From Pseudaminobacter salicylatoxidans (lineage in GTDB: Bacteria > Pseudomonadota > Alphaproteobacteria > Rhizobiales > Rhizobiaceae), in NCBI RefSeq assembly GCF_003148475.1, contig NZ_QGGG01000008.1, positions 124,001 through 188,000 on the forward strand: a stretch of 64,000 nt of DNA, written 5' to 3'. The notes below the pieces were generated by a model, which ran no database searches, was not told where the DNA came from, and saw nothing but the letters and a program-made list of their open reading frames with translations. Both the position numbers and the translations under genes were made by a program. Positions within the stretch are counted from its first letter, which is position 1; every line of letters begins with the position of its first letter. Below, one piece after another: positions 3,143-16,977 of the stretch.

Positions 3143-4060
3143 ATGACGCTTTACCTTGAACGAAGCCGACCGCGAAAAGCTTTTAAAGGCCTGCTTGGTA
3201 ACGCCAATCACCTGATCATAACCGCCTTGGCTGGGCTTGATGCTATCGAGCGCGGTGTCGTGCGCGAAGTACCGGAAGATTTACGGACCGTTTGGTCTCC
3301 TAAAAATGCGGTGAGCTCTGCAAAGCGCAGCAGGCGACTGATTCTGGATATGTCACTGATCAGGGCCATCGATGCCATCGACGTGTATCTCCGCGATTGC
3401 GTGCGCAAACCTGCACTCGTCCAATCGGACGAATTCCGGAAAGACTTGGACTCGGCGGGCCTGAGCGTCTTCCGGAAGCTACAGGCGGTTGAGCGCCACT
3501 GTCCCAACCTTGACACCATCGCCTTCGCGTTGGTTTTTCTTATGGTGGCGTGGCGAAATCGAGGTGCCCACACCGAAGCCGACCGCGACGCGCCGGAAGT
3601 GCATCTGGCCCTACTGCGTTCCAATGCAGAGAAGGTGGCGGCTAGATTCAGTGGGCTCGACGCCGAAATGCTTCTCGGTGGGTACGAGGCCATGCGGCCC
3701 GTCACGTTCAAGGAAGTTGCATCGCTGATTAACGCTGCGCATCACCTTGTGGCGAACTTAGACACGCTACTCCTGAAGTCCCTGGATATCGAGCAGTTTC
3801 TGAAGGACGTTATTTGGGCCTCGCTGAGCGATAGCCAAAAACCCCTTGAGTTGATTGAGCAGACTAGAAAGCGTCGCGCCGTTAGTGTCTGGGGCAAAGA
3901 TCCAAGCGACCGAGGTGACGCAGTCTTACGACTGCTCGGCCAGCAAGGATTCGCTAGGGTTCCGACCAAGCAGCAGACAGGGGTGGTGATCCCAACAGAC
4001 CTTATCGCTGAGCTGCAGCGACAGACGCCAAAGTCGGTTCTCGCTTGGGCTCGCCAGTAA
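3143..4060 (+). CDS. HEPN-like domain protein, function unknown
   Basis: The product has 305 residues counted from the ATG at 3143, 14 nt after the CCA of the tRNA-like structure; an in-frame GTG at 3101 lies inside the T arm and is less likely. The protein is helical and soluble. Residues 138-143 read RNRGAH, an R-x4-H motif of the kind that forms the active site of HEPN ribonucleases, in the context AWRNRGAHTEA. HEPN proteins often cleave RNA, including tRNA anticodon loops, in toxin-antitoxin and phage-defence systems. Whether this one is catalytic is inference. No antitoxin-sized partner is adjacent. A further uncharacterised gene follows after 119 bp on the same strand. Confidence 0.5.
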   Translation: MTLYLERSRPRKAFKGLLGNANHLIITALAGLDAIERGVVREVPEDLRTVWSPKNAVSSAKRSRRLILDMSLIRAIDAIDVYLRDCVRKPALVQSDEFRKDLDSAGLSVFRKLQAVERHCPNLDTIAFALVFLMVAWRNRGAHTEADRDAPEVHLALLRSNAEKVAARFSGLDAEMLLGGYEAMRPVTFKEVASLINAAHHLVANLDTLLLKSLDIEQFLKDVIWASLSDSQKPLELIEQTRKRRAVSVWGKDPSDRGDAVLRLLGQQGFARVPTKQQTGVVIPTDLIAELQRQTPKSVLAWARQ

Positions 4061-4179
4061 ATTAACCGTGTGTCCGGTGGGCGGGAGTGCGAAAGGAGGC
4101 GAGCTCGGCCGCGACCGTGAAGGCTGCGCGAGGGCAACAGTTTATCATCAGACGCACCGGTACCGCCTAAGGGTAAGAC

Positions 4180-5040
4180 ATGACTAATAACGACCTTGAG
4201 TCCGACTTTGTTACGGCGATCATCCAAGGTGCTGTAGCCGAGCGGCAGCGGCGTTCAGACGAGCATGCCGCATTGCGCGCAAGCGATGCTTACGTGGCGT
4301 CTATTCGCCAGATTGACCGCTACATCCTCGACTATGGACTCGGCATCAACATGATCGAGATGATGGCGAGCCGCAATCCGCCCTTCTTCGATCAGCTAAT
4401 CTCGCTCCGGATCAAGCCCCACTTCGTCCAGTCGATGATCGCGGCCGCTCATATGATCAAGGAAGGGCTGCACGATCCTGCAAGGCGAGAGATGCGCTTC
4501 CTGGTCGAGGCGTCTGTCAAAGCGTTGTGGCTCGACCAGGGCTCGCCCCCGCTCCGGCAGGACGCTGATCGCGATGCGACTGTGCCGCCGAGGACGGTGG
4601 CTGAAAAAGTCGCCGCGCTAGACGGGCTGGGGCGCGAGCGTTTCGATGAAGTAGTCGGCAGCCTGCGGTTTGGGATGCTCGATGAAACGGCCGGCAAACA
4701 GTATCGACAAACGGCGAAAAGCCTATATGGCACGCTCTCGACGACCACGCATGTCTCGTCGCGCAATGTCGAGCGCGACTTTGCCAACTTCGAGAAGGGC
4801 AAACACTTCGCGTTCGAGACCATCGCAGATATCAACGCTATCGCGCGGCTCCTGCGCCAGGTCCTCGATCTTGCGCTCGCTAGCCATTTCGAGGCGTTCG
4901 ACCACGGGCTCGTCGGCGACTTGTTCGAGCCGCATTTTGCCCCTGATTGGTCATTTCTCAAGATGCCACTCATCGCGGCGGTCGACCGGCATTTCGACTA
5001 TAAGCATGAGCGCCGCGTACGCCGCGGCGAGGTGGGCTGA
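4180..5040 (+). CDS. Uncharacterised helical protein, 286 aa
   Basis: The ATG at 4180 is preceded by AAGGG at 4169-4173, a usable ribosome-binding site. The protein is soluble, helical and charged, with no signal peptide or membrane segment. The stretches RREMRFLVEASVKALW (about residues 103-118) and LYGTLSTTTH (about 185-194) recall the conserved arginine and Y-x-x-x-S/T...H pattern of HEPN-like DUF families such as DUF5677, but I am not certain of membership. It lies on the same strand as the HEPN-like gene, 119 bp downstream, and may be co-transcribed with it. No function is assigned. Confidence 0.5.
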   Translation: MTNNDLESDFVTAIIQGAVAERQRRSDEHAALRASDAYVASIRQIDRYILDYGLGINMIEMMASRNPPFFDQLISLRIKPHFVQSMIAAAHMIKEGLHDPARREMRFLVEASVKALWLDQGSPPLRQDADRDATVPPRTVAEKVAALDGLGRERFDEVVGSLRFGMLDETAGKQYRQTAKSLYGTLSTTTHVSSRNVERDFANFEKGKHFAFETIADINAIARLLRQVLDLALASHFEAFDHGLVGDLFEPHFAPDWSFLKMPLIAAVDRHFDYKHERRVRRGEVG

Positions 5041-5297
5041 ATTTCGCTAGAGAGGGTGGTACACATCCTCACAGTCGCCAGCTTGCTAGTGACCCCGCGC
5101 CGGCCTTCGGGCGAACTCTGAACGAACGGCTGGTTTAAGGTGACGACAGAAGCACGCCAACGGCGAGAATGGCGTGGGTTGCGGACGACAGCTATTTAAC
5201 GCTTTTCGCTGGTACCGAACCGACCGCTTTCGTCCGGGTTGCTGCCCTAGAGTGCTCTCATCTCAATGTACGCGCTGTGATTGTTCAAACGACCTTA

Positions 5298-6575
5298 CTA
5301 TCCGCTAGAAAATTTCGAACGGTGTCTCTCCTCCGGGGCAAGCCAGCTTTCAATGAAATCCAGCGGATCAACACTTCCCATCACTGATCTGGCGAGCGTT
5401 AGACGTCCTTCTAAACGCTGCCGACGGTCGTCATCCGCGCTCTTTAGGCGCTCTGTTGCGTCCGCGAAGAATCGCTCTACGGTCATCGCCTTTCCCCACT
5501 TCTCCATGATCTCGGCCAGCTGCTGCCGGCTGTCGGCGAGAGCCTGGGCCGTTTTCCTTGCATCTTCCTCCCTTTCGTATCGCTCCCACCGCTCTTTTTG
5601 CTCTTTTTTCCTCTGCTCCTCCGCCGCTTCTTCGGCCTCCATAAGGCGTTGCAGATCAACTTTTGACGCCCCTAGCGTCTCGACAATTTCTGGGATCAGG
5701 CGCTCAAGCGATTGCTGCTCGGTTTCCTGCCAGTTGCGAGACCAGTTGACGCCATTCTTTGGTGAGTAGGCAACGATACGAAAACGCCCGCACGGCATAT
5801 CCTGCTCGGTTGTCCACGAGTGCGTCAGTTGCCAAGATTTTGCTGACCGGATGAGCTTGCTGTCCTCACGATGGTAGTCGCCATTGAAATAGCGCATCGT
5901 CACGCGCTCAGTCATCTCGGTGATGGCGAGCGCTACAGGCACCATGTCGATATAAAAAACCGTCGGCCTGTCAGGTGCCCAAATACTTCCCGAGTGGTAG
6001 CGACCGTATTTGCGATCTCGCTCGACCTCTTGTTCCCTGACATGAATCCGCAGCAGATTGTCGGCGGCTGGCGCGATTTGAACGCGGTAACTTCGCTCAT
6101 CAAGCGCAAGATACAGAGCGTTGGCGATGGAGAGAGCACGCTGAAGCGCGGCTTCTGATGAAATCAGGTCCGGCAGAATCCTTTTGTAGGGCCTGAGGAA
6201 CTCGCCGTTCTTGACCTCCCGTGTTTTCCGAAAATGTTCTTCTGCACCAAAAAGCAGCGGGTGACGAACCGGGCGGCGAGTTTTCGTAGCGAGCTTTGGC
6301 TTACGCGGGGCTCCTTCCTCCATCGTTCGTTTTTTGCGCGGTTTGACAACTGGCGGCAGGATATCGGTGGTCTCATCGGATGCTTCTGGCAAGGTCGGCA
6401 ACTCTGCCGGAAGTCCTAGGGACTTGCGGGTCCAGTATCCCGATCCGGGATAAGGCACTTGATATTGTTTGCAGATAGCTGCCAGTGCCGTGCCGGAAAT
6501 TCCGAGCTCCGGTGCGACTTTGCTAAGTGGCCTCTCACAGACTCGTTTATAAAGCTCAACGCGAGTCACCTGCAT
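5298..6575 (-). CDS. Uncharacterised protein with N-terminal ELYxRV...GISGTALAAIC motif
   Basis: The product is about 425 aa if read from the ATG at 6575 (MQVTRVELYKRV); an upstream in-frame start at 6623 is possible. Residues 5-45 have a helix-turn-helix-like pattern: LYKRV, LSKVAPELGISGTALAAIC, then VPYPGSGYW. The same pattern opens the broken gene at 15118, so both belong to one family. The middle has a basic KPRKKR stretch. Residues about 300-350 form a strongly charged EAEEAAEEQRKKEQKERWER helix, likely coiled coil. The family is widespread in proteobacterial islands, but I know of no assigned role. The gene is convergent with the upstream island genes. Confidence 0.55.
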   Translation of the reverse strand: MQVTRVELYKRVCERPLSKVAPELGISGTALAAICKQYQVPYPGSGYWTRKSLGLPAELPTLPEASDETTDILPPVVKPRKKRTMEEGAPRKPKLATKTRRPVRHPLLFGAEEHFRKTREVKNGEFLRPYKRILPDLISSEAALQRALSIANALYLALDERSYRVQIAPAADNLLRIHVREQEVERDRKYGRYHSGSIWAPDRPTVFYIDMVPVALAITEMTERVTMRYFNGDYHREDSKLIRSAKSWQLTHSWTTEQDMPCGRFRIVAYSPKNGVNWSRNWQETEQQSLERLIPEIVETLGASKVDLQRLMEAEEAAEEQRKKEQKERWERYEREEDARKTAQALADSRQQLAEIMEKWGKAMTVERFFADATERLKSADDDRRQRLEGRLTLARSVMGSVDPLDFIESWLAPEERHRSKFSSG

Positions 6576-7088
6576 AGCGAATATCTCAATTCCCTCATCA
6601 CCGATATCGCATTGCAGGTACACGCATTGATCCCATCTTTTGAAGGGGAAACTGCCCTTTTTTGATGCCGATTTTAGAGGGCTATAGCGTAGATATAGTT
6701 GTCATCATCACCCGGTGTGGCGCGCCAAATTCCGCCGATTATTCTCCACAATACGCTATTGCCGCCGAAAGTACGCTTGTGCCAGGAGCGGAAGGGGGCG
6801 TCATGTGAGGGAGCGTAGAAACGGCGGCGTTTGGCGGTGGAAAAGTTCGAATCGCTTCCGGCCGATTGATGGTTTTTTCCCAAAAGACGTTGTGCATGAG
6901 ACTCTGAATGGCAGTTGCACGCCTTATATCCGTCAATAGCAAAGTCGAACCTCCTATTGAAAGTGGTTATACTTGCGTCTCGGCACCTCTCACTTTGTTG
7001 GAAAGTAGCGCCAGTAAAAGAAACGGCTGAGAAAACACCGCCTCGGTGGTCACATGACGACCTCCATATACGAAGCTTCGCAGGGCTG
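6576..7088. other. 513-bp gap holding only a diverged 55-bp repeat
   Basis: No convincing gene is found between the ELY-type gene and the response regulator. The only structure I can support is the repeat at 6673-6727. Read on the minus strand, the region ends in a peptide tail GDDDNYIYAIAL followed by a stop, which looks like the last few codons of a lost gene. Confidence 0.45.
6673..6727 (-). repeat. 55-bp repeat, copy 1 (3' end of a lost gene)
   Basis: By eye it is identical at 49 of 55 positions to 22222-22276. On the minus strand both copies encode the same tail, DDNY[I/V]YAIAL plus stop, and four of the six differences fall within or next to the codons of that tail. The copies are 15.5 kb apart in the same orientation. 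Either both are 3' remnants of one gene family, or they are parts of a mobile element that I cannot identify. Confidence 0.6.
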
Positions 7089-7736
7089 TCATTTCTTGAG
7101 CAGTAGAGCAACCAGTTCCGCCTGCCTGCCGGTATCAGTCTTCTGGAATATATTGCGCATATGAAAGGCAACGGTGGACCGGGATACACCAAGGTCAGCC
7201 GCGATCTGCGTCAGCTTCCTGCCTTGCGTAAGCGCTTGGGTTATCCTTATTTCTGCGGGTGTGAGGCCATATGACTGCGCCACCATTGTAAAATCTGGAC
7301 CCGTCGGCTCCGGTGGGCGTGCCGAACGGATACGTTCGATCTGGCGCAAACGCGCTTCGATGGTCGCCAGCAAGAGATCGTAATCCACTGGTTTGACGAG
7401 ATAATCATCGGCACCAAGCCGCTTGCCATCCACAATATGCCTTGGATCGGCAAGGGCCGAGAGGAATACGAACGGAATTTCGGCATAGTCCGGCCCCCTT
7501 TCCTGCAGGGCTTCAAGCACGCCATAACCGTTAAGTTCGGGCATTGAGATATCGCAAAGAACCAGATCGGGGCAAACACGCGCCAGCTTCCCGAGCGCCT
7601 GTTTGCCATTGTCGGCTTCAACCACATCATAGCCAGCCTCGACCAGCTCATCCCTGATGTCACGCCGCAGCTGCGCTTCATCCTCAATGCAAAGGATCAC
7701 AAAAGGCTTCCGGTTCGGAGACGGCGCCAATGTCAT
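7089..7736 (-). CDS. Two-component response regulator, receiver plus LuxR-type HTH
   Basis: The product is 215 aa. The receiver spans residues ~11-130, with acidic pair E18/D19, phospho-acceptor D62 in LVLCDISMPELNG and the KP motif in DDYLVKPVD. The C-terminal LuxR/FixJ-type HTH is residues ~150-213 (GLTPAEIRITQALTQGRKLT, VSRSTVAFHMRNIFQ). The ATG at 7736 overlaps the stop of the kinase gene upstream by 4 nt (ATGA), so the two are translationally coupled and almost certainly cognate. Expected role: DNA-binding output of the PAS kinase, acting on the divergent secreted-protein operon that begins at 10243 (inference from gene order). Confidence 0.88.
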   Translation of the reverse strand: MTLAPSPNRKPFVILCIEDEAQLRRDIRDELVEAGYDVVEADNGKQALGKLARVCPDLVLCDISMPELNGYGVLEALQERGPDYAEIPFVFLSALADPRHIVDGKRLGADDYLVKPVDYDLLLATIEARLRQIERIRSARPPEPTGPDFTMVAQSYGLTPAEIRITQALTQGRKLTQIAADLGVSRSTVAFHMRNIFQKTDTGRQAELVALLLKK

Positions 7737-9559
7737 GCCAACTCCTTTCGTAGCGCCATGTCCGTAACAGAGGCGAAACCGGAGGCACCGCTGGGCAGCA
7801 GCATCGCCAGTCGAACCATGCCAGGCTCCGAATCTTGCAATTGCACATCGCCGCCCTGCAAACGGGCAAGCGCTCTGGCCATATAGAGGCCTACGCCGAT
7901 ACCGGGACGGCCTTCCGTATTGCTGCCGCGATAATAGCGTTCGAACAGCGCCTCCTGTTCGAATGACCCCTCCGGAGGTCCAGTGTTGGTCACCACGCAT
8001 TCGATCTGCGTGCCGCTGTCAGCGAGGGTAATTCTTATCGGTGTCTTTGCCGGTGAGTATTTGACTGCGTTGGACAGCAGATTGGTGAGAATGTGTTCCG
8101 CATGCACGGGATCACAATAGGCAATGGGAGAATCACCGTCCGGAAGCTTGAGAGTGATCCGGCCCGATCCGGTGTCTTTCGTCGACCGGGAGCAGACCTC
8201 TGCTACGAGGTCACCGAGATCGCAAAGCTGGCTGCGGACTTCGATCTGGCCGGCATCGAGGCGCGCGGCGTCGAGGGTGCTTTTCACCAGCCTGACCAGA
8301 CGCGCGATAGCGCTACGGGCTTCCTCGCCCCGTTCCAGGACCTCTTTTGGGGTTAGCCTGTCACGCCGGCGCATCAGGCGCTGAAGCGCGGAATCGACAA
8401 GGGCGAGCGGGGTGCGGAACTGGTGCGAGATCATGGTGCCGAAGTTCCGATAAAGATCGGCTGTGGCGCGCTCCCGGGTCAGGGCCGCGTCAAGCTCCTG
8501 CGTACGGGCCTGCACCAATTGTTCCAGATGATCACGATGATTGGCAATCTCCCGCTGAGCCGCCCTTCGTTCGGTCACGTCCGAGACCAGCAGGATCGTG
8601 CCAATGATGCGCCCACCGTCACGCAGCGAGAAGCAGCGCAAATCGACATAAAGCGGGTCGCATTGGTGAGGTGGAAAGAACGGCTGATCCAACAACGCAA
8701 CCGCCCGGCCCTGAAGGGCATCGCCGACCGCCTGCTCGACCCTGTCTACTTCGAAGAAACCGGAGAGTTCACGCAGCAACGAGCCTGTGGCACTGCGAGT
8801 GCCGTGGCCAAACAGCCGTTCGGCAGCCTCGTTCCAGAGCGTGCAGCGCCGATCCATATCGACAGCGATGATGCCTTCACCACTGGAGCCGATCAGAAGT
8901 TCAGAGAACGCCTTTTCCTTGTTGAGCAGGCGGGTCCGTTGCCTTGCATCGCGGATCGCCAGCAAAAAATGGAAGCAAAGCACGGTACCTGCCAGCGATA
9001 TGCCGACCATGGAGATGATGATCTGCCACAGCTGCTTGCGCGTTGCGTCAAGCGTGGCGCCAAGGTCGTCCCATTCGGCCACCATTGCCTTGTTGGCCGC
9101 TTCCGTGAGCGCTACATTGTAGGGGACAAGCAAGGCCCTGATGCGCGGCATCGTCTCTGTTCCGGCGCTCATCACCAGTGAGCCAAGTTCAGGCAGGCTT
9201 CCACGCAAGGCGTCAAGCGGGGCCGTCGCGCCAAGTGCTTCCATCCGCCGACGCTGCGGGCCATCGTCAAGCAAGGCAAGCCGACTGAGGAATACGTTGT
9301 AACGCAGCTCCATCTGCGCAGGATCAACCTCTCCGGCAACGCTGCCCGCGACGGCCTCACCCAGTTGAAGGCTTGAAATATGTGCCCGCGAGATCACCCA
9401 AAGCATGTTCTGAGTGGCCTCGATGCGCATGTCCCGCTCAAGGTCGGAAAGACGCATCAGCGAGAAGGCCAGCAGCACGACGAATATGATGATGGCCGAG
9501 ACCGGCAGTGCGACGCCCAGCAATGCCCGCGCCCGTTTCTTCATCGAATTTCGAGCCAT
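7733..9559 (-). CDS. Membrane sensor histidine kinase with PAS domain
   Basis: The product is 608 aa. A first membrane helix is at ~14-36 and a second at ~178-200, enclosing a helical periplasmic sensor of ~140 residues. A PAS domain follows at ~225-340 (SSGEGIIAVDMDRRCTLWNE), then a short coiled segment. The dimerisation H-box is SHQFRTPLALVDSALQRL, and the catalytic domain has N-box LTNLLSNAVKYSPA and G-box GIGVGLYMARAL. All motifs needed for autophosphorylation are present. The gene start overlaps the end of the upstream secreted-protein gene by 19 nt, so sensor partner, kinase and regulator form one tight operon. Confidence 0.9.
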   Translation of the reverse strand: MARNSMKKRARALLGVALPVSAIIIFVVLLAFSLMRLSDLERDMRIEATQNMLWVISRAHISSLQLGEAVAGSVAGEVDPAQMELRYNVFLSRLALLDDGPQRRRMEALGATAPLDALRGSLPELGSLVMSAGTETMPRIRALLVPYNVALTEAANKAMVAEWDDLGATLDATRKQLWQIIISMVGISLAGTVLCFHFLLAIRDARQRTRLLNKEKAFSELLIGSSGEGIIAVDMDRRCTLWNEAAERLFGHGTRSATGSLLRELSGFFEVDRVEQAVGDALQGRAVALLDQPFFPPHQCDPLYVDLRCFSLRDGGRIIGTILLVSDVTERRAAQREIANHRDHLEQLVQARTQELDAALTRERATADLYRNFGTMISHQFRTPLALVDSALQRLMRRRDRLTPKEVLERGEEARSAIARLVRLVKSTLDAARLDAGQIEVRSQLCDLGDLVAEVCSRSTKDTGSGRITLKLPDGDSPIAYCDPVHAEHILTNLLSNAVKYSPAKTPIRITLADSGTQIECVVTNTGPPEGSFEQEALFERYYRGSNTEGRPGIGVGLYMARALARLQGGDVQLQDSEPGMVRLAMLLPSGASGFASVTDMALRKELA

Positions 9560-10056
9560 CGCAATTGCCAGACCCAGCGATAATCGAAGCGGATATCCTG
9601 CAATTCCGCATGCTGATCACGCGGATAGATCATCCATAGCGGCCCCTTGTCACCCGGCAGCAGCGGTTCGCCGTCCATTTCATAGGCAATGAGCACGTCG
9701 AACCGGTCGAATTCTTCAATCGCGATTTCAATCGCGTAATCGTTCACGGCTCGCGCCGTCACGGCTGTGCCCCTGGCGCCGACATGCGCCAGAATATCCC
9801 TCATCAGAAAGCCGTCAAAGCGACGTACGCCATCTGTGACGGCCGTCGTTGTTTCCAGCCGGGCGGCGGGCAACGCCCTCAGCATCTCCATATCGAAATG
9901 CGCCACCCCTTCCGCATTGATCCTGGAAATGGCGCCACGCACCTCAAGTATGGAGGGAGACGTGGGGGGCGGCATTTTTTCCGTGTCACGGCCATGGACG
10001 TCAGTAGAAAAGTAAAACAACGTGGCTGTCAGAATAGAAAAGAAAAACCTCTGCAA
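9541..10056 (-). CDS. Secreted molybdopterin-oxidoreductase-fold (SUOX-like) protein without cofactor cysteine
   Basis: The product is 171 aa from a TTG at 10056; no in-frame ATG gives the hydrophobic leader (QRFFFSILTATLFYFSTDVH), so TTG is chosen. After the leader comes a small beta-rich domain with the features of the Oxidored_molyb superfamily: VRGAI near the start, FDGFLMRDILAHVG, then NDYAIEIAIEEF, AYEMDGEPLLPGDKGPLWMI and YPRDQ. True sulfite-oxidase-type enzymes bind molybdopterin through a cysteine, and this protein contains no cysteine at all, so an enzymatic role is unlikely. Its position as first gene of a kinase/regulator operon suggests a periplasmic ligand-binding or sensor-accessory role. 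Confidence 0.7.
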   Translation of the reverse strand: MQRFFFSILTATLFYFSTDVHGRDTEKMPPPTSPSILEVRGAISRINAEGVAHFDMEMLRALPAARLETTTAVTDGVRRFDGFLMRDILAHVGARGTAVTARAVNDYAIEIAIEEFDRFDVLIAYEMDGEPLLPGDKGPLWMIYPRDQHAELQDIRFDYRWVWQLRWLEIR

Positions 10057-10242
10057 ATCGACGCGTCGCCCCCCAAGCTGTTTCCTATCCTTATCGTGCC
10101 GGCTTACTTTATTCGTTTTTCCTGCCTTGGATACCTGCGGCCAATTATACTCACGCTTTCCGGCACGTCCCTATCCAAATGGACGGGGCATGTTTGCTTT
10201 GCTCCTGCTAGAGCCGGACAGGTGTAGAAAGCGGGGCGGAGC

Positions 10243-11226
10243 ATGTGGGATTTTAGCGTCGGCGGCGCACTGGCAATGATGGCGCGGACCATGCCATTCA
10301 TCGTATTACGCATGGCGGTCTATTTCGGCATTGCCGTTGGCTACGTTCTGGTGACCGGAACCGGTGCCGGCATCGGCTATGGCGTTGGCGGCTTCGGTGA
10401 CGAGGGCTTTCAGGCCAATACGACCATGTGGGGCGGCATCATGGGCTTCGGCCTGTTTGGCGCCATCATGTACTGGGCGCGCGAATACATCCTTTATATC
10501 GTCAAGGCGGGCCATATAGCGGTGCTGGTCGAACTGATCGACGGCAAGCCGATGCCAGACGGAAAGTCGCAGGTCAGCCATGCGACAGCGGTGGTAAAGG
10601 AGCGTTTCGCTCAGGCCAGCGTGCTGTTTGCCATCGATCAGCTCGTCAAGGGCGTGATCGGCGCGATCACGGGGCTGGTGCGCGGAATTCTGACCATCCT
10701 GCCCATACCCGGCGCGCAGCAGCTTTCCGGTATCCTGCATGCCTTCCTGCGGGTTGCCGTCGGTTTCATCGACGAGGTCATCCTAGCCTACGCAATTCGC
10801 ACCGGTTCGACCAACCCATGGGGATCGGCCAGGGAAGCGCTGGTGCTCTATGGCCAGAATTACAAGGTCATGCTCAAGAACGCCGCCTGGCTGGCGATTA
10901 TTGTCTACCTCATGAGCTTTCTGGTGTTTCTGGTCATGCTCGCGCCGGCGGCTCTCGTCGTCTACCTGATGCCGGGGGCCTGGGCAGCAGGCGGCTTCGT
11001 CTTCGCACTACTGTTTGCCTGGAGCGTCAAGGCAGCGCTTCTGGAACCCTTCGCCATCGCCTGCATGATGCAGGTCTATTTCAGGACGATTGAAGGCCAG
11101 CAACCAAACCCCGAATGGGACGCAAGGCTGGAACAGATGTCGGCCAAATTCCGCAAGCTGAAGGCCCGGGCCCTGGGTGAAGCACGACCTTCCGCCGCAG
11201 CTGAAAGCGGCTGGCGTCAGGCGTGA
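10243..11226 (+). CDS. Polytopic inner-membrane protein, 327 aa, first gene of VWA operon
   Basis: The ATG at 10243 follows GGGGCGGAGC. Several long hydrophobic helices are visible: ~20-40, ~62-90 with glycine-rich GGIMGFGLFG, ~125-165, and two strong ones at ~222-270. The topology has a short cytoplasmic start and a charged C-terminal tail (EQMSAKFRKLKARAL). I do not recognise a named family. The gene is divergent from the secreted SUOX-like/kinase/regulator operon across 186 bp, and its stop overlaps the region just upstream of the VWA gene, so it starts a four-gene operon of envelope proteins. A channel, scaffold or assembly factor for the secreted partners is possible but not shown. Confidence 0.65.
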   Translation: MWDFSVGGALAMMARTMPFIVLRMAVYFGIAVGYVLVTGTGAGIGYGVGGFGDEGFQANTTMWGGIMGFGLFGAIMYWAREYILYIVKAGHIAVLVELIDGKPMPDGKSQVSHATAVVKERFAQASVLFAIDQLVKGVIGAITGLVRGILTILPIPGAQQLSGILHAFLRVAVGFIDEVILAYAIRTGSTNPWGSAREALVLYGQNYKVMLKNAAWLAIIVYLMSFLVFLVMLAPAALVVYLMPGAWAAGGFVFALLFAWSVKAALLEPFAIACMMQVYFRTIEGQQPNPEWDARLEQMSAKFRKLKARALGEARPSAAAESGWRQA

Positions 11227-11249
11227 CGCGCCATCCACGACAGGAGACA

Positions 11250-13277
11250 ATGATGAAAATTCTGAAGGCAACGCTTGTCGCGGCCACAGCAGTCACGATG
11301 TCCTTTTCGGGCGCCTCGGCGGCTGAGGATGTGGTGATCGTCTATGACGCCTCCGGCTCGATGTGGGGCCAGATCGACGGTACCAGCAAGATCGAGATCG
11401 CGCGCGAAGTGATGGCAGATCTGGTGACCGGATGGTCCGCCGACATCAATCTCGGCCTGGTCGCCTACGGGCACCGCTCCGAAGGCGACTGCCGCGACAT
11501 CGAGACATTGATCGAACCGGGGCCGCTCGACCGGGCAAACTTCATAAAGAAGGTCAACGGCATCCAGCCGAGAGGCAAAACACCGATTTCGGCCGCCGTG
11601 CAACATGCCGCCGATCTCCTGTCCTATCGCGATAATCCTGCAACTGTCGTGCTCATTTCAGACGGGCTGGAAACCTGTCAGGCCGATCCTTGTGCATTGG
11701 CCGGACAACTGGCGCAGCAGGGTGTGAAGTTCACCACCCATGTCGTCGGTTTCGATCTTGACGACAAGGCTCATGCCAGCCTTGCCTGCATCGCTGAAAA
11801 CACCGGCGGCGTCTTTGTCCCGGCTCAGAACGCTGCGGAACTTAAAGACGCGCTGGCGCATGTACAGTCGGTCATGGACCTGCAGCCGATGGTACAGCAA
11901 GAGGGCGAAGCAACCCCTGAACCGGAGCAGCAAACCGCCGAGATAGAGGTGCAGGCTCCTGCAACCGTGATCACCGGCGCGAGCTTCGCGGTCACCTACT
12001 CGGACAATCTGCATGCGAACGACTTTGTCACCATCGTGCCTGCCGGAGCTGATGAAGGCTCAGAAGGCAGATATTTCCGCGTCGGCGACAAGAATGAGGG
12101 CGCACTGGTCGCGCCGGCCACACCCGGCCTTTATGAAGTCCGCTACGTGCAAAGCCAGGGCCACAACACACTCGGCTCCACACCAATCGAAGTCGTCGAG
12201 GCGGAGCTGGGCATCGCTGCGCCCGAACAGGTGACCACGGGCACAAGCTTCAAGGTGACGTGGTCTTCGTCTATCCACCCGCAGGATTTTGTCACCATCG
12301 TGCCTGTCGGGTCGGATGAAGGCACGGAAGCCAGATATTTCCGCGTCGGTGAAAACACCGAGAACAGCCTTGTGGCACCGGCGGAACCCGGCCTTTACGA
12401 GGTCCGCTATGTGCTGAACAATGGCCGGCGTACCATGGCCTCCACGCCGGTCGAAGTGATCGAAGCGGAGATGGCCATCGCCGCGCCCGAACAGGTGACC
12501 ACGGGCGCAAGCTTCAAGGTGACCTGGTCTTCGTCTATCCATCCGCAGGATTTTGTCACCATCGTGCCTGCCGGGTCGGATGAAGGCACGGAAGCCAGAT
12601 ATTTCCGCGTCGGTGAAAACACCGAAAACAGCCTTGTTGCGCCGGCAGAGCCGGGCCTCTACGAGGTCCGCTATGTGCTGAACAATGGCCGGCGCACCAT
12701 GGCGTTCACGCCCGTCGAGGTGGTCGGGGCCGAGGTAACGCTCAGCGCTCCCGATGTGCTGCGCGCCGGCTCGGAAATGCGCATGAGCTGGTCCTCGTCA
12801 ATCCATCCGCAGGATTTCATCACCATCGTGCCCGCCGGTGCCGGGCAGGGCGCGGAAGGCAAATATCTTCGTGTGCGGGACAACACGGATGGCAAGCTCG
12901 TCGGGCCGACCGAAACAGGCTTTTACGAGTTGCGCTACATTCTGAACGAAGGCGCCCGGATAATGGCCACCCACAGCTTCGAGGTCGTCCCGGCAAACGC
13001 ACCACTGGATGAAGGAGCGGGGCTCAACGCACCGGCACAGGCGGGTGTCGGTGAGACGATCACCGTGTCGTGGACTGCGGAGGCCGGCAGTGCGGACCAG
13101 CGCGTCTCTGTTGCCCGCGCCGATCAGGCTGATTTCAGCTGGATTGCCGCCCACAAGGTGGGGGCGGAAAAAGTACTGGAACTGCAAATGCCAGCGGAAG
13201 CCGGAGCCTATGAGGTGCGCTTTCTCGATATCAGTGGCCGCAAGGTTCTCGGCCGCTCAATCGTGGAGGTGAAGTGA
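11250..13277 (+). CDS. Secreted von Willebrand factor A protein with five tandem ~88-aa repeats
   Basis: The product is 675 aa from the ATG at 11250, which has AGGAG 6 nt before it. A signal peptide covers residues 1-28 (ending SGASAA). The VWA domain is ~30-215, with the metal-site motif DASGSM and later threonine/aspartate elements (RGKTPISAAV, LISDGLETC); a cysteine pair in LETCQADPC suggests a disulfide. Five beta-rich repeats of ~88 residues follow, each with the pattern FKVTWSSSIHPQDFVTIVP ... YFRV ... LVAPAEPGLYEVRYV. The last is the most diverged. VWA proteins of this kind bind partners or matrix through a divalent metal. The product is predicted to be periplasmic or surface-exposed and to act with the co-transcribed membrane, SH3-like and lipoprotein partners. 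Confidence 0.85.
   Translation: MMKILKATLVAATAVTMSFSGASAAEDVVIVYDASGSMWGQIDGTSKIEIAREVMADLVTGWSADINLGLVAYGHRSEGDCRDIETLIEPGPLDRANFIKKVNGIQPRGKTPISAAVQHAADLLSYRDNPATVVLISDGLETCQADPCALAGQLAQQGVKFTTHVVGFDLDDKAHASLACIAENTGGVFVPAQNAAELKDALAHVQSVMDLQPMVQQEGEATPEPEQQTAEIEVQAPATVITGASFAVTYSDNLHANDFVTIVPAGADEGSEGRYFRVGDKNEGALVAPATPGLYEVRYVQSQGHNTLGSTPIEVVEAELGIAAPEQVTTGTSFKVTWSSSIHPQDFVTIVPVGSDEGTEARYFRVGENTENSLVAPAEPGLYEVRYVLNNGRRTMASTPVEVIEAEMAIAAPEQVTTGASFKVTWSSSIHPQDFVTIVPAGSDEGTEARYFRVGENTENSLVAPAEPGLYEVRYVLNNGRRTMAFTPVEVVGAEVTLSAPDVLRAGSEMRMSWSSSIHPQDFITIVPAGAGQGAEGKYLRVRDNTDGKLVGPTETGFYELRYILNEGARIMATHSFEVVPANAPLDEGAGLNAPAQAGVGETITVSWTAEAGSADQRVSVARADQADFSWIAAHKVGAEKVLELQMPAEAGAYEVRFLDISGRKVLGRSIVEVK
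12211..12738 (+). repeat. Two near-identical 264-bp tandem repeats inside the VWA gene
   Basis: Repeats two and three of the VWA protein (12211-12474 and 12475-12738) differ at only about four residues, while the flanking repeats are much more diverged. The exact 88-codon period and very high DNA identity point to a recent duplication or ongoing homogenisation, so repeat number may vary between strains. Confidence 0.85.
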
Positions 13278-13279
13278 AT

Positions 13280-14092
13280 ATGGCAGGCATGCTCAAAGCG
13301 GTGTTTGCTGCAATCACGCTCGGTATCGCGACATTTCCAGCGCTCGCCGAAATCGACGGACACGGGCCGGATGCCTGGCGAGTAACGGGAGTATCCGCCA
13401 ACGACACTCTCAACGCCCGGATGGGTCCAGGCACCAACTATCCGGTGATTGAGACATTTGCCCACAATGAACGCGGCATGCAGCAGATCACCTGTGTACC
13501 ATTCTATACAGCAGCCCACTACACAGCGATGTCGCAGGCTCAGATCAGAGCGCTGCCGGCGCGCTGGTGTTTGATGCGCAACAAAGCGATGAGCAAGGCC
13601 GGCTGGGTCGCGCAGCGCTACATCACACCCGATAGCGGCAAGGTCTTGGCCACTCCGACGAAGACCCGCCCCGCGCAGCCTGCACGCGAGCCTTACGCAC
13701 CGAACCCCGACATCGATCCGGTTGCCCAGGCACAGGATCTGGTGCGGGAGATCTACGAACGTCAGTTCCAGTCAGAAAACAGCAATCTGCCGAGCGCATT
13801 CGATCCGGCGGTGTCGAGGAACTACTTCACCGACGACATATTGGCCTGGCTGGCCTCTGGCAACATCGGTGCGCATCCGCTTTATGGCGCTCAGGATTTT
13901 GATGGCGCCATAGAAGACCCGGTGCCCGACCCTCGACAGCCGATGCTGCGCGGCATGATCACCATCAATGTCGATTTCACCAATTTCGGCAAGCAGCAGC
14001 GCGCGGTCTTTTTACTGCGCGCCGACACCACCAAACCCGGCGCGCCGCTCCGCATTTTCCGCGTCGAACACAATGGCTGGTCCTATCCGTAG
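13280..14092 (+). CDS. Secreted SH3-like protein with C-terminal DUF3828-like region
   Basis: The ATG at 13280 sits 9 nt after GGAGGT; a GTG at 13274 would be too close to it. Length is 270 aa. A signal peptide ends at ALA (~residue 23). Residues ~33-115 resemble a bacterial SH3 domain (VTGVSANDTLNARMGPGTNY, then KAGWVAQRYI), with a cysteine pair (TCVPF and RWCLM) that could form a disulfide. After a proline-rich linker, residues ~150-270 resemble the DUF3828 fold (ITINVDFTNFG ... FRVEHNGWSYP). It begins 2 nt after the VWA gene stop. SH3b domains often bind peptidoglycan or partner peptides; cell-envelope anchoring is plausible here. Confidence 0.75.
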   Translation: MAGMLKAVFAAITLGIATFPALAEIDGHGPDAWRVTGVSANDTLNARMGPGTNYPVIETFAHNERGMQQITCVPFYTAAHYTAMSQAQIRALPARWCLMRNKAMSKAGWVAQRYITPDSGKVLATPTKTRPAQPAREPYAPNPDIDPVAQAQDLVREIYERQFQSENSNLPSAFDPAVSRNYFTDDILAWLASGNIGAHPLYGAQDFDGAIEDPVPDPRQPMLRGMITINVDFTNFGKQQRAVFLLRADTTKPGAPLRIFRVEHNGWSYP

Positions 14093-14128
14093 GCCATGGA
14101 GAAAGTCGTGATCACAGGAAATTACGGA

Positions 14129-14602
14129 ATGGACGGATGTAGAACCGGATCCGTTGTCATGATCGGCTTGTTCGGCGCCCTGTTGCTGACAGGTTGCAGC
14201 GCGGAAGCGGAAGCGCCGACATCGAAAAACTCCACCGGCGTCGCGATAAGTGTTCTGGAAACAACGACAGGTCGCTACGAATTTACGCCGACCACATGCG
14301 GCATCTATAGCCAGGATGATTTCGACGATATTGAAATCCAGGGGCCAGGGACGGCACCAAATGGAGAAAAGTTCTTTTTCCAACTGTCGTCTACTGCAAA
14401 TGCAATGACCATCGGCCTCGGCGTCGATCGTCCCTTCGCCAGCCCCGAGCGTCAGATTCAGGCCGGGCGCGTCTATTCACAGGAGTTCACCATCGTGACT
14501 TCCGGGAGACAGCTGTCCGTTGCAGGTCTGGTGTTGGTGGACGAAAATGGCGCATCTATCGATGACCGCGCCACCCTGACCATCGATTGCGGCGCGCAGT
14601 AA
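14129..14602 (+). CDS. Predicted lipoprotein, last gene of VWA operon
   Basis: The product is 157 aa from the ATG at 14129 (MDGCRTGSVV), preceded by AGGAA at a 9-nt spacing; an ATG at 14096 would give an implausibly long n-region. The lipobox is LLTGC, with the acylated cysteine at residue 23, followed by SAEAEAP, which favours outer-membrane sorting. The mature part is a small beta-rich domain with two cysteines (TTCGIY, TIDCGAQ), likely disulfide-bonded. It has no recognised family. It lies 36 bp after the SH3-like gene and closes the operon that starts at 10243. Confidence 0.7.
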   Translation: MDGCRTGSVVMIGLFGALLLTGCSAEAEAPTSKNSTGVAISVLETTTGRYEFTPTTCGIYSQDDFDDIEIQGPGTAPNGEKFFFQLSSTANAMTIGLGVDRPFASPERQIQAGRVYSQEFTIVTSGRQLSVAGLVLVDENGASIDDRATLTIDCGAQ

Positions 14603-15117
14603 GGAACGGAGTTCGGAACAAGGAAAAGGCCGCAGCAGCGCTGATGGCTGCAGCATATATCGCACTACCCGATGGAGACGGGAGCCATCGACATCACATT
14701 CGACGACGAGCGACCCACTACACAATACGGAATGACGTACCGAACGATCTGACTCGATAGGTGCGCGCGGCAAGCTGGCCAATCATTAAGCCACTCCCCA
14801 TGGGTGGCGTGAATATCATCCCCTGATTATGTGTTCGTGCCGCCCTGCGACGTGCCGATATCCCAACTCCCTCGTCCGGGCACTGGATGCGGAAAGAGTT
14901 CGGAAAGCCGATAGAACAGCCCCCTCTACCGCTAACACCATCCGGATGTGTTGAGCCGCTAGTGCTGGATACTGAGAAGCAGGGAGTTGGGCGCAAGCCT
15001 AAACATGTCACAGCGGATCTGACACTCAATCTCGGCGTGGCACAGAAGACTTTAGCAGCGACGCCCGAAAATCCTCTCCGGGCCACGCCAAAGCCACGTC
15101 CTACACAACCGACCACA
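14603..15117. other. 515-bp gap, no gene recognised
   Basis: The stretch between the lipoprotein and the broken ELY-type gene holds no frame that I can support. The frame of the broken gene is open back to 14887, but the extra N-terminus is low-complexity and the family start is at 15118. No clear terminator is visible after the lipoprotein gene. Confidence 0.4.
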
Positions 15118-15725
15118 ATGACACGACAGGAGCTCTATGGCGCGGTATGGACGACGCCGATGTCGCGATTGGCTGAGGAATATGGGATCAGCGGCAATGG
15201 TCTCGCCAAGATTTGCGATCGGGAAGATATCCCGCATCCGCCACGCGGATATTGGGCGAAGCATACCGTAGGCAAAGCGCCAAAACAGACACCATTGCCG
15301 AAATCGAGAAGTGCGCGCTCCATCACCATCCGCCCGACACCCTTGCCGCCGCCTCCCATTGAGTTACCACCGGAGGTAATGCAACAGGTAGACAAAGCTC
15401 GCGCGAGCGGATCCTCCCTTGTAGTGCCCGAGCGCCTCCTGAGACCACACGCGGTGATCGCGTCATGGCTCGCTGAGCATGAGGAAAAGAAGCGGCAGGC
15501 CCGCAACGAACGCGATCCATGGATGCGCAATCTGTACCGTCCGAGCGAATTCACCGAAACGGACCGTCGCAAGCATCGTATTCTGGATGCCTGTTCAAGG
15601 CGATTGAACGCCAAGGCGGAAAGGGGGCAGAGGAGTGGCTCCAACTGGCCGATCCGACAGCCAATGGAGTCGATGGTGTCTTCAAGAAGGTCGCCGCCGT
15701 TACCGATTGGACCTACCGGGATTGA
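15118..15725 (+). pseudogene. Frameshifted, truncated homologue of the ELY-type protein at 5298
   Basis: The frame starting at ATG 15118 reads MTRQELYGAVW, LAEEYGISGNGLAKIC and PHPPRGYWAK, matching the N-terminal pattern of the protein at 5298-6575. Near 15590 the frame is lost: RKHRILDA in the first frame continues as LFKAIERQGGK one frame back, which a single missing base would explain. The second frame then stops at 15723 after about 40 codons, well short of the ~420-residue relative. So the copy carries a frameshift and lacks its C-terminal half. Its 3' end overlaps the end of the convergent MFS gene, marking a rearrangement junction. Confidence 0.75.
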
Positions 15726-16977
15726 TCGCCTGGATACCCAATGAGCTGGGCAGGTGAGGTCCGCATTCCGTTGTCGTCGTCGTACGAAACGGCCGACCCA
15801 TCGCTCTGGCGTAGCCGGCGGGTGCCATGCGCCAGAAGAGCCCGGCTACCACAACCGCGCAGCACAGATGCAGCGTCCAGCCTGCCGTGAAGCCGCCGGT
15901 AAGGTTGTGGAGGGTGGCGACGATCCATGGCGGCAGTGCCGCAAGCAGGAAGCCGCCACCTTGCATGAGTGCGGAGAGCGCTCCGGCTTCGGCAGGGTCT
16001 GGAAGGTGGTCGAGCGCCACGATCATCAACAGCGCGAAGCAGCCGCCCAGCCCGGCGCCCAGAACGGCGACCCACAAAAATGGTGCTGCCTCCGGCCGCA
16101 GGACCAACGCGAGAAATCCGATAACCTGCATGGCCAGCGTCAGCCATAGCCATGGCCGCCGGTCTTCCCGCCTGTTGGCCAGCAGCGGCAGCAGCAGCGC
16201 GGCGCCGGCCTGGCACACGGCCATGACCGCCAACAGGCTGCCGCTGGCGGGCGCACTCCAGCCGAGATCGCGATAGAAGGGCGAAAGCCACGCCACTGCA
16301 GTGGAATAACCGCCATTGACGAGGCCGAAACAGGCCATCAGGAGCCAGGTTCGTGGACGTCTGAGAAGAGCGCCGGTCTTGCTCACGCCACCCACACTCT
16401 GCGCGTCTGCCGGCAGGCTGCGCGCAACAAGCCCCAGCGCCAGAAACGCTGGCAACGCCATCCAGGCTAGCCCCGCATGCCAGTCACTGGTAGCGGTCGC
16501 AATCAGCGGAGCCAATTGTGCTCCCACCGCGCCGCCGCCCATCAGCATGGCGGAGTAAAGCCCCATGACGACGCTGACATGGGCAGGAAAATGCCGCTTG
16601 ATGACGCCGGGAAACATGGCCTGAACCACTGCCGCGCCAAGGCCGAGCAGCGCCGCCGTGGCCACCATCTGCCAGCCGGTCCACACGAACAGGCGCAGCA
16701 ATGAGGCGACCGCCAGCACCGCAAGCGCGACAAGGATGGAACGCCGCGCACCAACCCGTGCCTGCAAGGTCGGGCCCGCGAAAGCCAGCGCCCCCATCAG
16801 GAACATCGGCACCAGCGTCAGCAGCGAGAGGCCTTGCAGGTCGAGACCGGTCTGCAAGGAAATATCGGCGGCGAGCGGACCGATTCCAGTGATGAACAAC
16901 CTCAGAGCCAGCCCCACCAGCACAATGGCCGCAAGCAGCAGCAGGCCACCGGGAACCGGTGCGGAGTCGTGTTTCAT
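15700..16977 (-). CDS. MFS transporter, CynX/NimT type (cassette copy 1)
   Basis: The product is 425 aa from the ATG at 16977, with twelve predicted membrane helices. Signature segments include TGIGPLAADI in helix 1, GARRSILVAL after helix 2, FPGVIKRHFP and NGGYSTAVAWLSPFY, as in CynX/NimT transporters (cyanate, nitroimidazole and related small polar solutes). The substrate is unknown. It lies 4 bp after a deaminase gene and belongs to a three-gene cassette (ankyrin, deaminase, MFS) that recurs at 36540-38908. The last ~30 residues (RPFRTTTTTECGPHLPSS) are not found in the other copy and run into the broken gene at 15725, so the native C-terminus has probably been replaced. Confidence 0.85.
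   Translation of the reverse strand: MKHDSAPVPGGLLLLAAIVLVGLALRLFITGIGPLAADISLQTGLDLQGLSLLTLVPMFLMGALAFAGPTLQARVGARRSILVALAVLAVASLLRLFVWTGWQMVATAALLGLGAAVVQAMFPGVIKRHFPAHVSVVMGLYSAMLMGGGAVGAQLAPLIATATSDWHAGLAWMALPAFLALGLVARSLPADAQSVGGVSKTGALLRRPRTWLLMACFGLVNGGYSTAVAWLSPFYRDLGWSAPASGSLLAVMAVCQAGAALLLPLLANRREDRRPWLWLTLAMQVIGFLALVLRPEAAPFLWVAVLGAGLGGCFALLMIVALDHLPDPAEAGALSALMQGGGFLLAALPPWIVATLHNLTGGFTAGWTLHLCCAVVVAGLFWRMAPAGYARAMGRPFRTTTTTECGPHLPSSLGIQAINPGRSNR

Follow-up and report, generated by a model that had tools for sequence, protein, structure and literature searches.

What links a secreted sensor-like protein, a kinase and a regulator to the envelope operon encoded opposite them is the question raised by a locus of Pseudaminobacter salicylatoxidans, which we studied in a window of 64,000 nucleotides (the whole stretch analysed; positions 124,001 to 188,000 of contig NZ_QGGG01000008.1, assembly GCF_003148475.1). 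The locus consists of seven genes in two tight divergent operons separated by an intergenic gap of 186 bp. The minus-strand operon encodes a homologue of the pterin-binding protein PruR, a sensor kinase and a LuxR-type response regulator (RR), in this order, neighbouring genes overlapping by 19 and 4 bp. On the plus strand, a membrane protein (hereafter TM), a VWA protein, an SH3-like protein and a small lipoprotein are encoded; the first three genes overlap by 4 bp each time, and 3 bp separate the last two. A first-pass annotation, made from the sequence alone, had described two tight divergent operons, and the coordinates, overlaps and gap are all borne out; the eight genes it counted are seven. 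We consider it probable that the envelope operon is controlled by a PruR-DTB-like two-component system that is dedicated to it and horizontally mobile.

Linkage, mobility and the 20-bp site

TM homologues were found in 54 of 397 genomes sampled from the order. Within this sample, nine loci of other families have a PruR homologue and a kinase beside TM, the gene order varying: L055, for instance, reads TM-PruR-kinase with a divergent regulator, and L103 reads TM-VWA-PruR-kinase. The locus is more than a chance arrangement, because these genes are found together in further families, in differing orders. A scan with one genome per species retained the best 80 of at least 551 confirmed TM loci, many with flanks ending at contig ends; in 53 of these 80, a PruR homologue lay no more than 10 kb from TM. 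By their tree names these loci include members of Rhizobiaceae, Brucellaceae, Devosiaceae, Phyllobacteriaceae, Stappiaceae, Paracoccaceae and Roseobacteraceae. Conservation beyond one genus, on which the first-pass annotation had staked its proposal, was found: the linkage recurs over families and two orders, with the gene order shuffled. In same-genus genomes, the PruR homologue and the 20-bp site described below were both absent (3/3). In a TM tree of 128 rows, computed by a quick method, all 59 PruR-labelled rows fell into one group of 75 (SH-aLRT 97); one of the 59, L209, lacks a called PruR and has the kinase and regulator. The tree omitted rows shorter than 290 aa and the near copies L055, L100, L104, L105, L106 and L108 (the copy status of L105 is presumed). 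RR and histidine kinase (HK) labels at compared loci required 30% identity, and genes were called by an in-house script.

TM was present on 87 plasmid records, 62 of them from Pseudosulfitobacter. Three records were opened: one carries a PruR cassette with IS110 transposase genes near it, and the other two have a LuxR-type regulator in place of the cassette, one being flanked by IS6 and IS5 transposase genes. The PruR-linked TMs of Paracoccus denitrificans and Mesorhizobium sediminum, which belong to different orders, are nearly identical, with end branches of 0.004 and 0.011. Such near identity across orders, together with the plasmid and transposase contexts, indicates that the module moves, and from these comparisons we read the cluster as horizontally mobile.

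The regions upstream of TM share a 20-bp inverted repeat with the consensus CCCCNTTCAAAYGAACGGGG. A first strict regular expression matched 10 of 135 loci, the sites being variable, and was replaced by a position weight matrix (PWM) built from 24 distinct sites, with a score of at least 18 taken as a call. The site was present in 63/63 loci having PruR, kinase and TM, versus 8/72 TM loci without a called PruR (Fisher 5e-30; the loci are related, and the 135 scanned still include near copies). In 28 of the 63 it lies more than 260 bp from TM, outside the PWM training region, with all scores at 22 or above. The window site is the sole one scoring at least 14 within the 64 kb, and a degenerate pattern matches the genome just once, at window positions 10170-10188. 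This pattern occurs in 10/10 genomes with PruR beside TM, in 0/10 comparison genomes and in 11/387 other genomes of the order sample (Fisher 1.5e-14 versus 10/10). A reversed control pattern matches 9/397 genomes by our own count, so that 11/387 is near background. Six of these 11 genomes were inspected, with G308, G274, G337, G118 and G329 left out: G192 holds a real cassette, G326 a remnant of the regulator, and G340, G094, G062 and G068 have no module gene near the match.

VWA genes located in a separate operon have their own site in L055/L212, L104/L221 and L186. Four sites away from TM were inspected (G041:C6, G380:C35, G224:C28 and G133:C1); three precede small exported genes of the module type (L252, with a damaged VWA; L254, with a short fragment; and L255), and in L253 the site stands about 1.4 kb ahead of a VWA gene, with poor gene calls in between. 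Among 23 PruR-type matches, 13 were inspected as other loci and five more are L055, L056, L065, L066 and the window. The site was absent at a threshold of 18 from all 13 other PruR loci, and at 15 from L065 and L066. The proposal of a single pathway made up of the secreted protein, the kinase and the regulator is supported, and the conserved site ties that pathway to the facing operon.

Some sites have other neighbours. L252 (G041:C6, 4126-7991) is a site-bearing cluster of small exported-looking genes including the damaged VWA, with no TM or PruR called. L186 encodes at 8895-9875 an additional 326-aa membrane-protein-like product beside TM, with its own site and no Pfam match. L280 (G340:C37) has at 6521-6540 a site scoring 29.5 without a module gene; the gene next to it presumably resembles 5-aminolevulinate synthase.

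The sensor pair

A profile of 17 PruR homologues matched pterin-binding chains in the PDB (7KOS, E 9.5e-45 over profile positions 26-169; 7RKB, 4e-39; 7KOM, 2.6e-23; 7KP2, 1.7e-19), and sulfite oxidase chains only at E 0.6-0.8. The window protein is without any cysteine and so lacks the molybdenum-ligand Cys; with this, and with pterin-binding chains far closer than sulfite oxidases, an active molybdoenzyme was rejected. The counterparts of Tyr104 and Trp160 in A. tumefaciens PruR are Tyr107 and Trp163, whose spacing of 56 residues equals that in 7KOS. Asn105, Tyr107 and Trp163 are invariant in 17/17 aligned homologues. In the part of PMC13259868 available to us, Tyr104 and Trp160 are named for pterin binding, and the Asn counterpart is also discussed for the site.

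The N-terminal 200 aa of the kinase, as a profile of 17 TM-linked kinases, matched with probability 98.7 and E 1.6e-16, over 191 columns, the partners of the 13 other PruR homologues; GG[DE]EF is present in four of those 13 partners. A DcpA-type periplasmic domain on the kinase and a PruR homologue encoded in an overlapping gene pair (19 bp), the features by which PruR-DTB systems are recognised, are both found here. Judged by homology to PruR pterin-binding proteins, the signalling half is known in kind. The first-pass annotation had called the whole a candidate undescribed system; that label fails for the signalling half, which is homologous to PruR-DTB systems, and stands for the output half, for which no description was found among the literature titles listed. 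The domains it had assigned to the regulator, PAS kinase, SUOX-like protein and VWA protein are supported by Pfam (Table 1).

A WX7E motif is reported in the vast majority of PruR-DTB systems (PMC13259868, available part). We found it at the usual place in 10/13 partners of the other PruR homologues and in the TM-linked kinases of L192, L194, L195, L197, L201, L202 and L225; another match occurs near residue 155 in 22/56 TM-linked kinases, where the window kinase reads WDDLGATLD. In L192, L194 (Paracoccus denitrificans), L195, L197, L201, L202, L105 and L232 the module takes a variant form, PruR and TM being separated by four or five additional small genes; among these, the kinases of L192 to L202 keep WX7E at residue 48.

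The start of the window RR was set by a codon model, the 303-aa open reading frame that reaches 8000 having an over-long start. The 60 complete cassettes, copies among them, comprise 17 with a long kinase and short regulator, 18 with a short kinase and long regulator, and 25 with both long. Pfam PAS is above the cut-off in the long regulator of L056 and below it in that of L055; the short L055 kinase has none, and in L098 the kinase alone carries it.

Products of the facing operon

Table 1. Features of the locus, in window coordinates.
Feature	Position	Strand	Evidence and remarks
LuxR/NarL-type RR	7089..7736	-	215 aa; Pfam Response_reg E 9.7e-24 and GerE E 6.3e-10, both above cut-off
DTB-like sensor kinase	7733..9559	-	DcpA-like periplasmic domain, PAS, HisKA, HATPase; Pfam HATPase_c 3.1e-17, PAS_4 2.7e-13, HisKA 8.8e-9
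PruR homologue, secreted, SUOX fold	9541..10056	-	Pfam Oxidored_molyb E 4.1e-8; TTG start
20-bp inverted-repeat site CCCTATCCAAATGGACGGGG	10169..10188		Predicted RR binding site; PWM score 28.4
-10-like element TAGAGC	10209..10214	+	Consensus TAnnnT, final T absent in window; 20 bp past site
Membrane protein (TM), predicted CysZ/choline-transporter-like fold	10243..11226	+	AlphaFold2 model and structural alignment
VWA protein, probably exported	11223 (or 11250)..13277	+	Pfam VWA_2 2.1e-11, VWA 1.9e-10; five tandem repeats
SH3-like protein, probably exported	13274..14092	+	N-terminal SH3b-like, C-terminal NTF2-like fold
Small lipoprotein	14096 (or 14159)..14602	+	LTGC lipobox from 14159 start, by eye; eight-member alignment

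TM matched no Pfam family at E up to 1, the choline transporter-like (CTL) profile included. Its identity to the window protein is 55-79% over 12 other loci and reaches 98% in the one-genome-per-species scan. The AlphaFold2 model is of moderate confidence (mean pLDDT 79.6). Structural alignment of this model (VIA) gave CysZ 3tx3 at Z 14.6 (221 aligned residues, root mean square deviation 3.6) and CTL1/PNS1 at Z 12.2-12.3, the next row being at 6.6; helical bundles can reach Z of about 13 without kinship. TM is predicted from the model to share the overall CysZ/CTL fold.

MIDAS-type VWA domains are marked by DxSxS, T and D metal-site motifs. The window protein has DASGS, the motif already noted in the first-pass annotation, together with GKTP and SDGLE; among 46 homologues longer than 400 aa, DxSxSM[WG]G or its N variant is present in 44, GxTP in 35 and SDGxE in 42. 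As for the five repeats proposed earlier, four are similar copies and the fifth is more divergent; they were read by eye, a BLAST self-comparison giving the trivial match alone. The SH3 domain proposed for the third gene was below the Pfam cut-off (E 0.19) and gained support from PDB chains of SH3b type (E 3.6e-4 and 1.5e-3). In the AlphaFold2 model of this protein (pLDDT 77.9, pTM 0.51), residues ~151-268 aligned by VIA with Tai3 (4hz9, Z 12.2) and YbjP (9tg4, Z 9.3). A likeness to MlaC, the top Foldseek match (E 0.027), was rejected, VIA having ranked Tai3 and YbjP first. We assign the C-terminal half of the model to an NTF2-like fold and claim nothing narrower. The lipoprotein has no Pfam match; the lipobox ascribed to it is present, given the later start, and a resemblance to mycobacterial LpqH is conjectural.

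Relatives of the module add small exported-looking proteins, four of which were scanned without yielding a convincing Pfam family; a LemA protein was found by scan in the L102 module, and a similar one by eye in L103. TM and SH3 proteins are labelled hypothetical in the plasmid records examined. Export was judged from the N-termini by eye, and because every product is by this reading in or beyond the inner membrane, the operon may encode an envelope complex around TM, the least certain of our conclusions. The surface or periplasmic assembly suggested in the first-pass annotation is likewise conjectural.

At 13496-17236 of L231, behind the module on a Roseinatronobacter plasmid, lies a gene whose 1247-aa product has a Big_5 Ig-like domain and, below threshold, a metallopeptidase signal; proteins of similar length are also found behind the module in L162 and L163. 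The genes flanking the module in the window, at 5298-6623 (-) and 14887-15744 (+), are mutually homologous (41% over 63 aa, E 2e-13), and the window reaches its GC minimum of 0.564 at 4001-8000; together these may mark an insertion site.

Direction of control, alternatives and known systems

Among 29 distinct sites adjacent to TM, a TAnnnT element begins 20 bp beyond the repeat (T21 24/29, A22 27/29, T26 23/29), with information of 1.15, 1.55 and 1.01 bits at these positions versus a shuffle maximum of 0.64. If this element is taken as the -10, the site is centred at about -42.5, where a -35 would be, and transcription in the window is predicted to start near 10221. Class II activator sites, such as the lux box, are centred near -42.5. 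Given the fixed distance from the -10-like element and this class II geometry, the regulator is most likely an activator of the facing operon.

The pathway we propose would begin with the secreted PruR homologue binding a pterin, probably reduced, in the periplasm, and then touching the DcpA-like periplasmic domain of the kinase and altering its activity, as expected from the family. The kinase would phosphorylate the LuxR-type regulator, as is usual for these families, and the regulator would bind the 20-bp repeat near -42.5 of the facing operon and activate it, for which the comparative evidence is strong. More speculatively, the CysZ/CTL-fold TM might work with the VWA, SH3-NTF2 and small exported proteins, possibly in a periplasmic complex that alters the surface or wall of the cell in response to a changed pterin signal.

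Several observations weigh against this pathway. Val73 aligns with the 7KOS Trp that replaces the molybdenum-ligand Cys in PruRs and is Val in 17/17 homologues, the identity of that Trp being our own reading of the alignment. The WX7E glutamate is gone from the window kinase, which reads NMLWVISRAHISS at that place with the motif not intact, and from most TM-linked kinases (motif in 7/56). The eight TM loci that carry the site without a called PruR include two that still have a kinase; the separate VWA genes of L102 and L226 lack a site themselves; G166 has its pattern match within the kinase gene and a weak site (18.6) ahead of TM; and the strong G340 site stands with no module gene nearby. 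Foldseek alone returned nothing significant for the TM model (best E 0.11; CTL1 0.34; CysZ 0.63-0.94), and the output function is assigned from domain resemblance. With Val73 in place of Trp, the window protein is classed as PruR-like and not as a strict PruR member; on sequence grounds the sensor pair is PruR-DTB-like, homologous with two typical features altered.

These two alterations would fit a PruR homologue that no longer binds pterin and senses another ligand or only partners the kinase; the invariant Asn105, Tyr107 and Trp163, matching pterin-site residues in the available part of PMC13259868, speak against such a loss and make this alternative unlikely, though the most serious of those weighed here. 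Somewhat less likely still is the same wiring with the opposite sign, in which the regulator represses, or pterin binding turns the kinase off so that pterin loss induces the operon. Pterin-bound A. tumefaciens PruR lowers cyclic di-GMP and limits biofilm (PMC13259868, available part), and a site in a divergent intergenic region could act both ways; against this, a constant 20 bp separates the -10-like element from the site, which takes the -35 place usual for a class II activator.

We think it quite improbable that the inverted repeat serves another regulator or forms an RNA element. The repeat is GC-rich and inverted, and RR binding is a prediction; however, it lies upstream of the conserved -10-like element and would not be transcribed from that promoter, and it remains beside the PruR-HK-RR cassette in loci without an adjacent TM, such as those of G035 (TM not found, the facing gene looking AraC-like) and G192 (TM on another contig). 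That two unrelated operons are chance neighbours co-travelling on a plasmid or island is rejected as highly implausible: the halves do occur apart, with LuxR- or AraC-type regulators preceding TM in loci without PruR (L108, L160, L231, L233) and PruR homologues without TM, but the association holds in several gene orders, several families and two orders, as the linkage and 63/63 versus 8/72 site counts attest, and the site is tied to the cassette.

If PruR-DTB-like control is correct, the target operon, probable operator and probable promoter can be read from the sequence, which makes kinase-routed pterin signalling testable by one promoter fusion and offers a first handle on a very conserved, mobile TM and VWA module. 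A wider reading, which we put forward tentatively, is that a redox signal carried by pterins, in the periplasm or between cells, turns on a transferable envelope machine, with the one 20-bp site defining a stand-alone regulon of almost this module alone.

Among known systems the closest are PruR-DTB and PruR-DcpA (A. tumefaciens PruA-PruR-DcpA; the R. pomeroyi DTB protein). PruR-DTB systems are reported to be widespread, and no transcriptional target operon of this kind is named in the available part of PMC13259868. The window kinase has its output as in DTB; the window differs in having Val for Trp and in the glutamate mostly lost among TM-linked kinases, and it adds a separate LuxR-type regulator gene, its own 20-bp site and a recurrent TM-VWA-SH3 partner operon. 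TM is like CysZ, CTL1 and PNS1 in predicted fold, at 8-13% identity and without a Pfam match at E 1. The C-terminal half of the SH3-like protein resembles in fold the Tai3 immunity protein and YbjP (NTF2-like, periplasmic), whereas the window protein has an extra SH3b-like domain and is 13-15% identical to them. Lux-box promoters share with this locus a 20-bp inverted repeat near -42.5 and a LuxR-type helix-turn-helix regulator, but the site sequence differs and the window regulator has a phospho-receiver domain.

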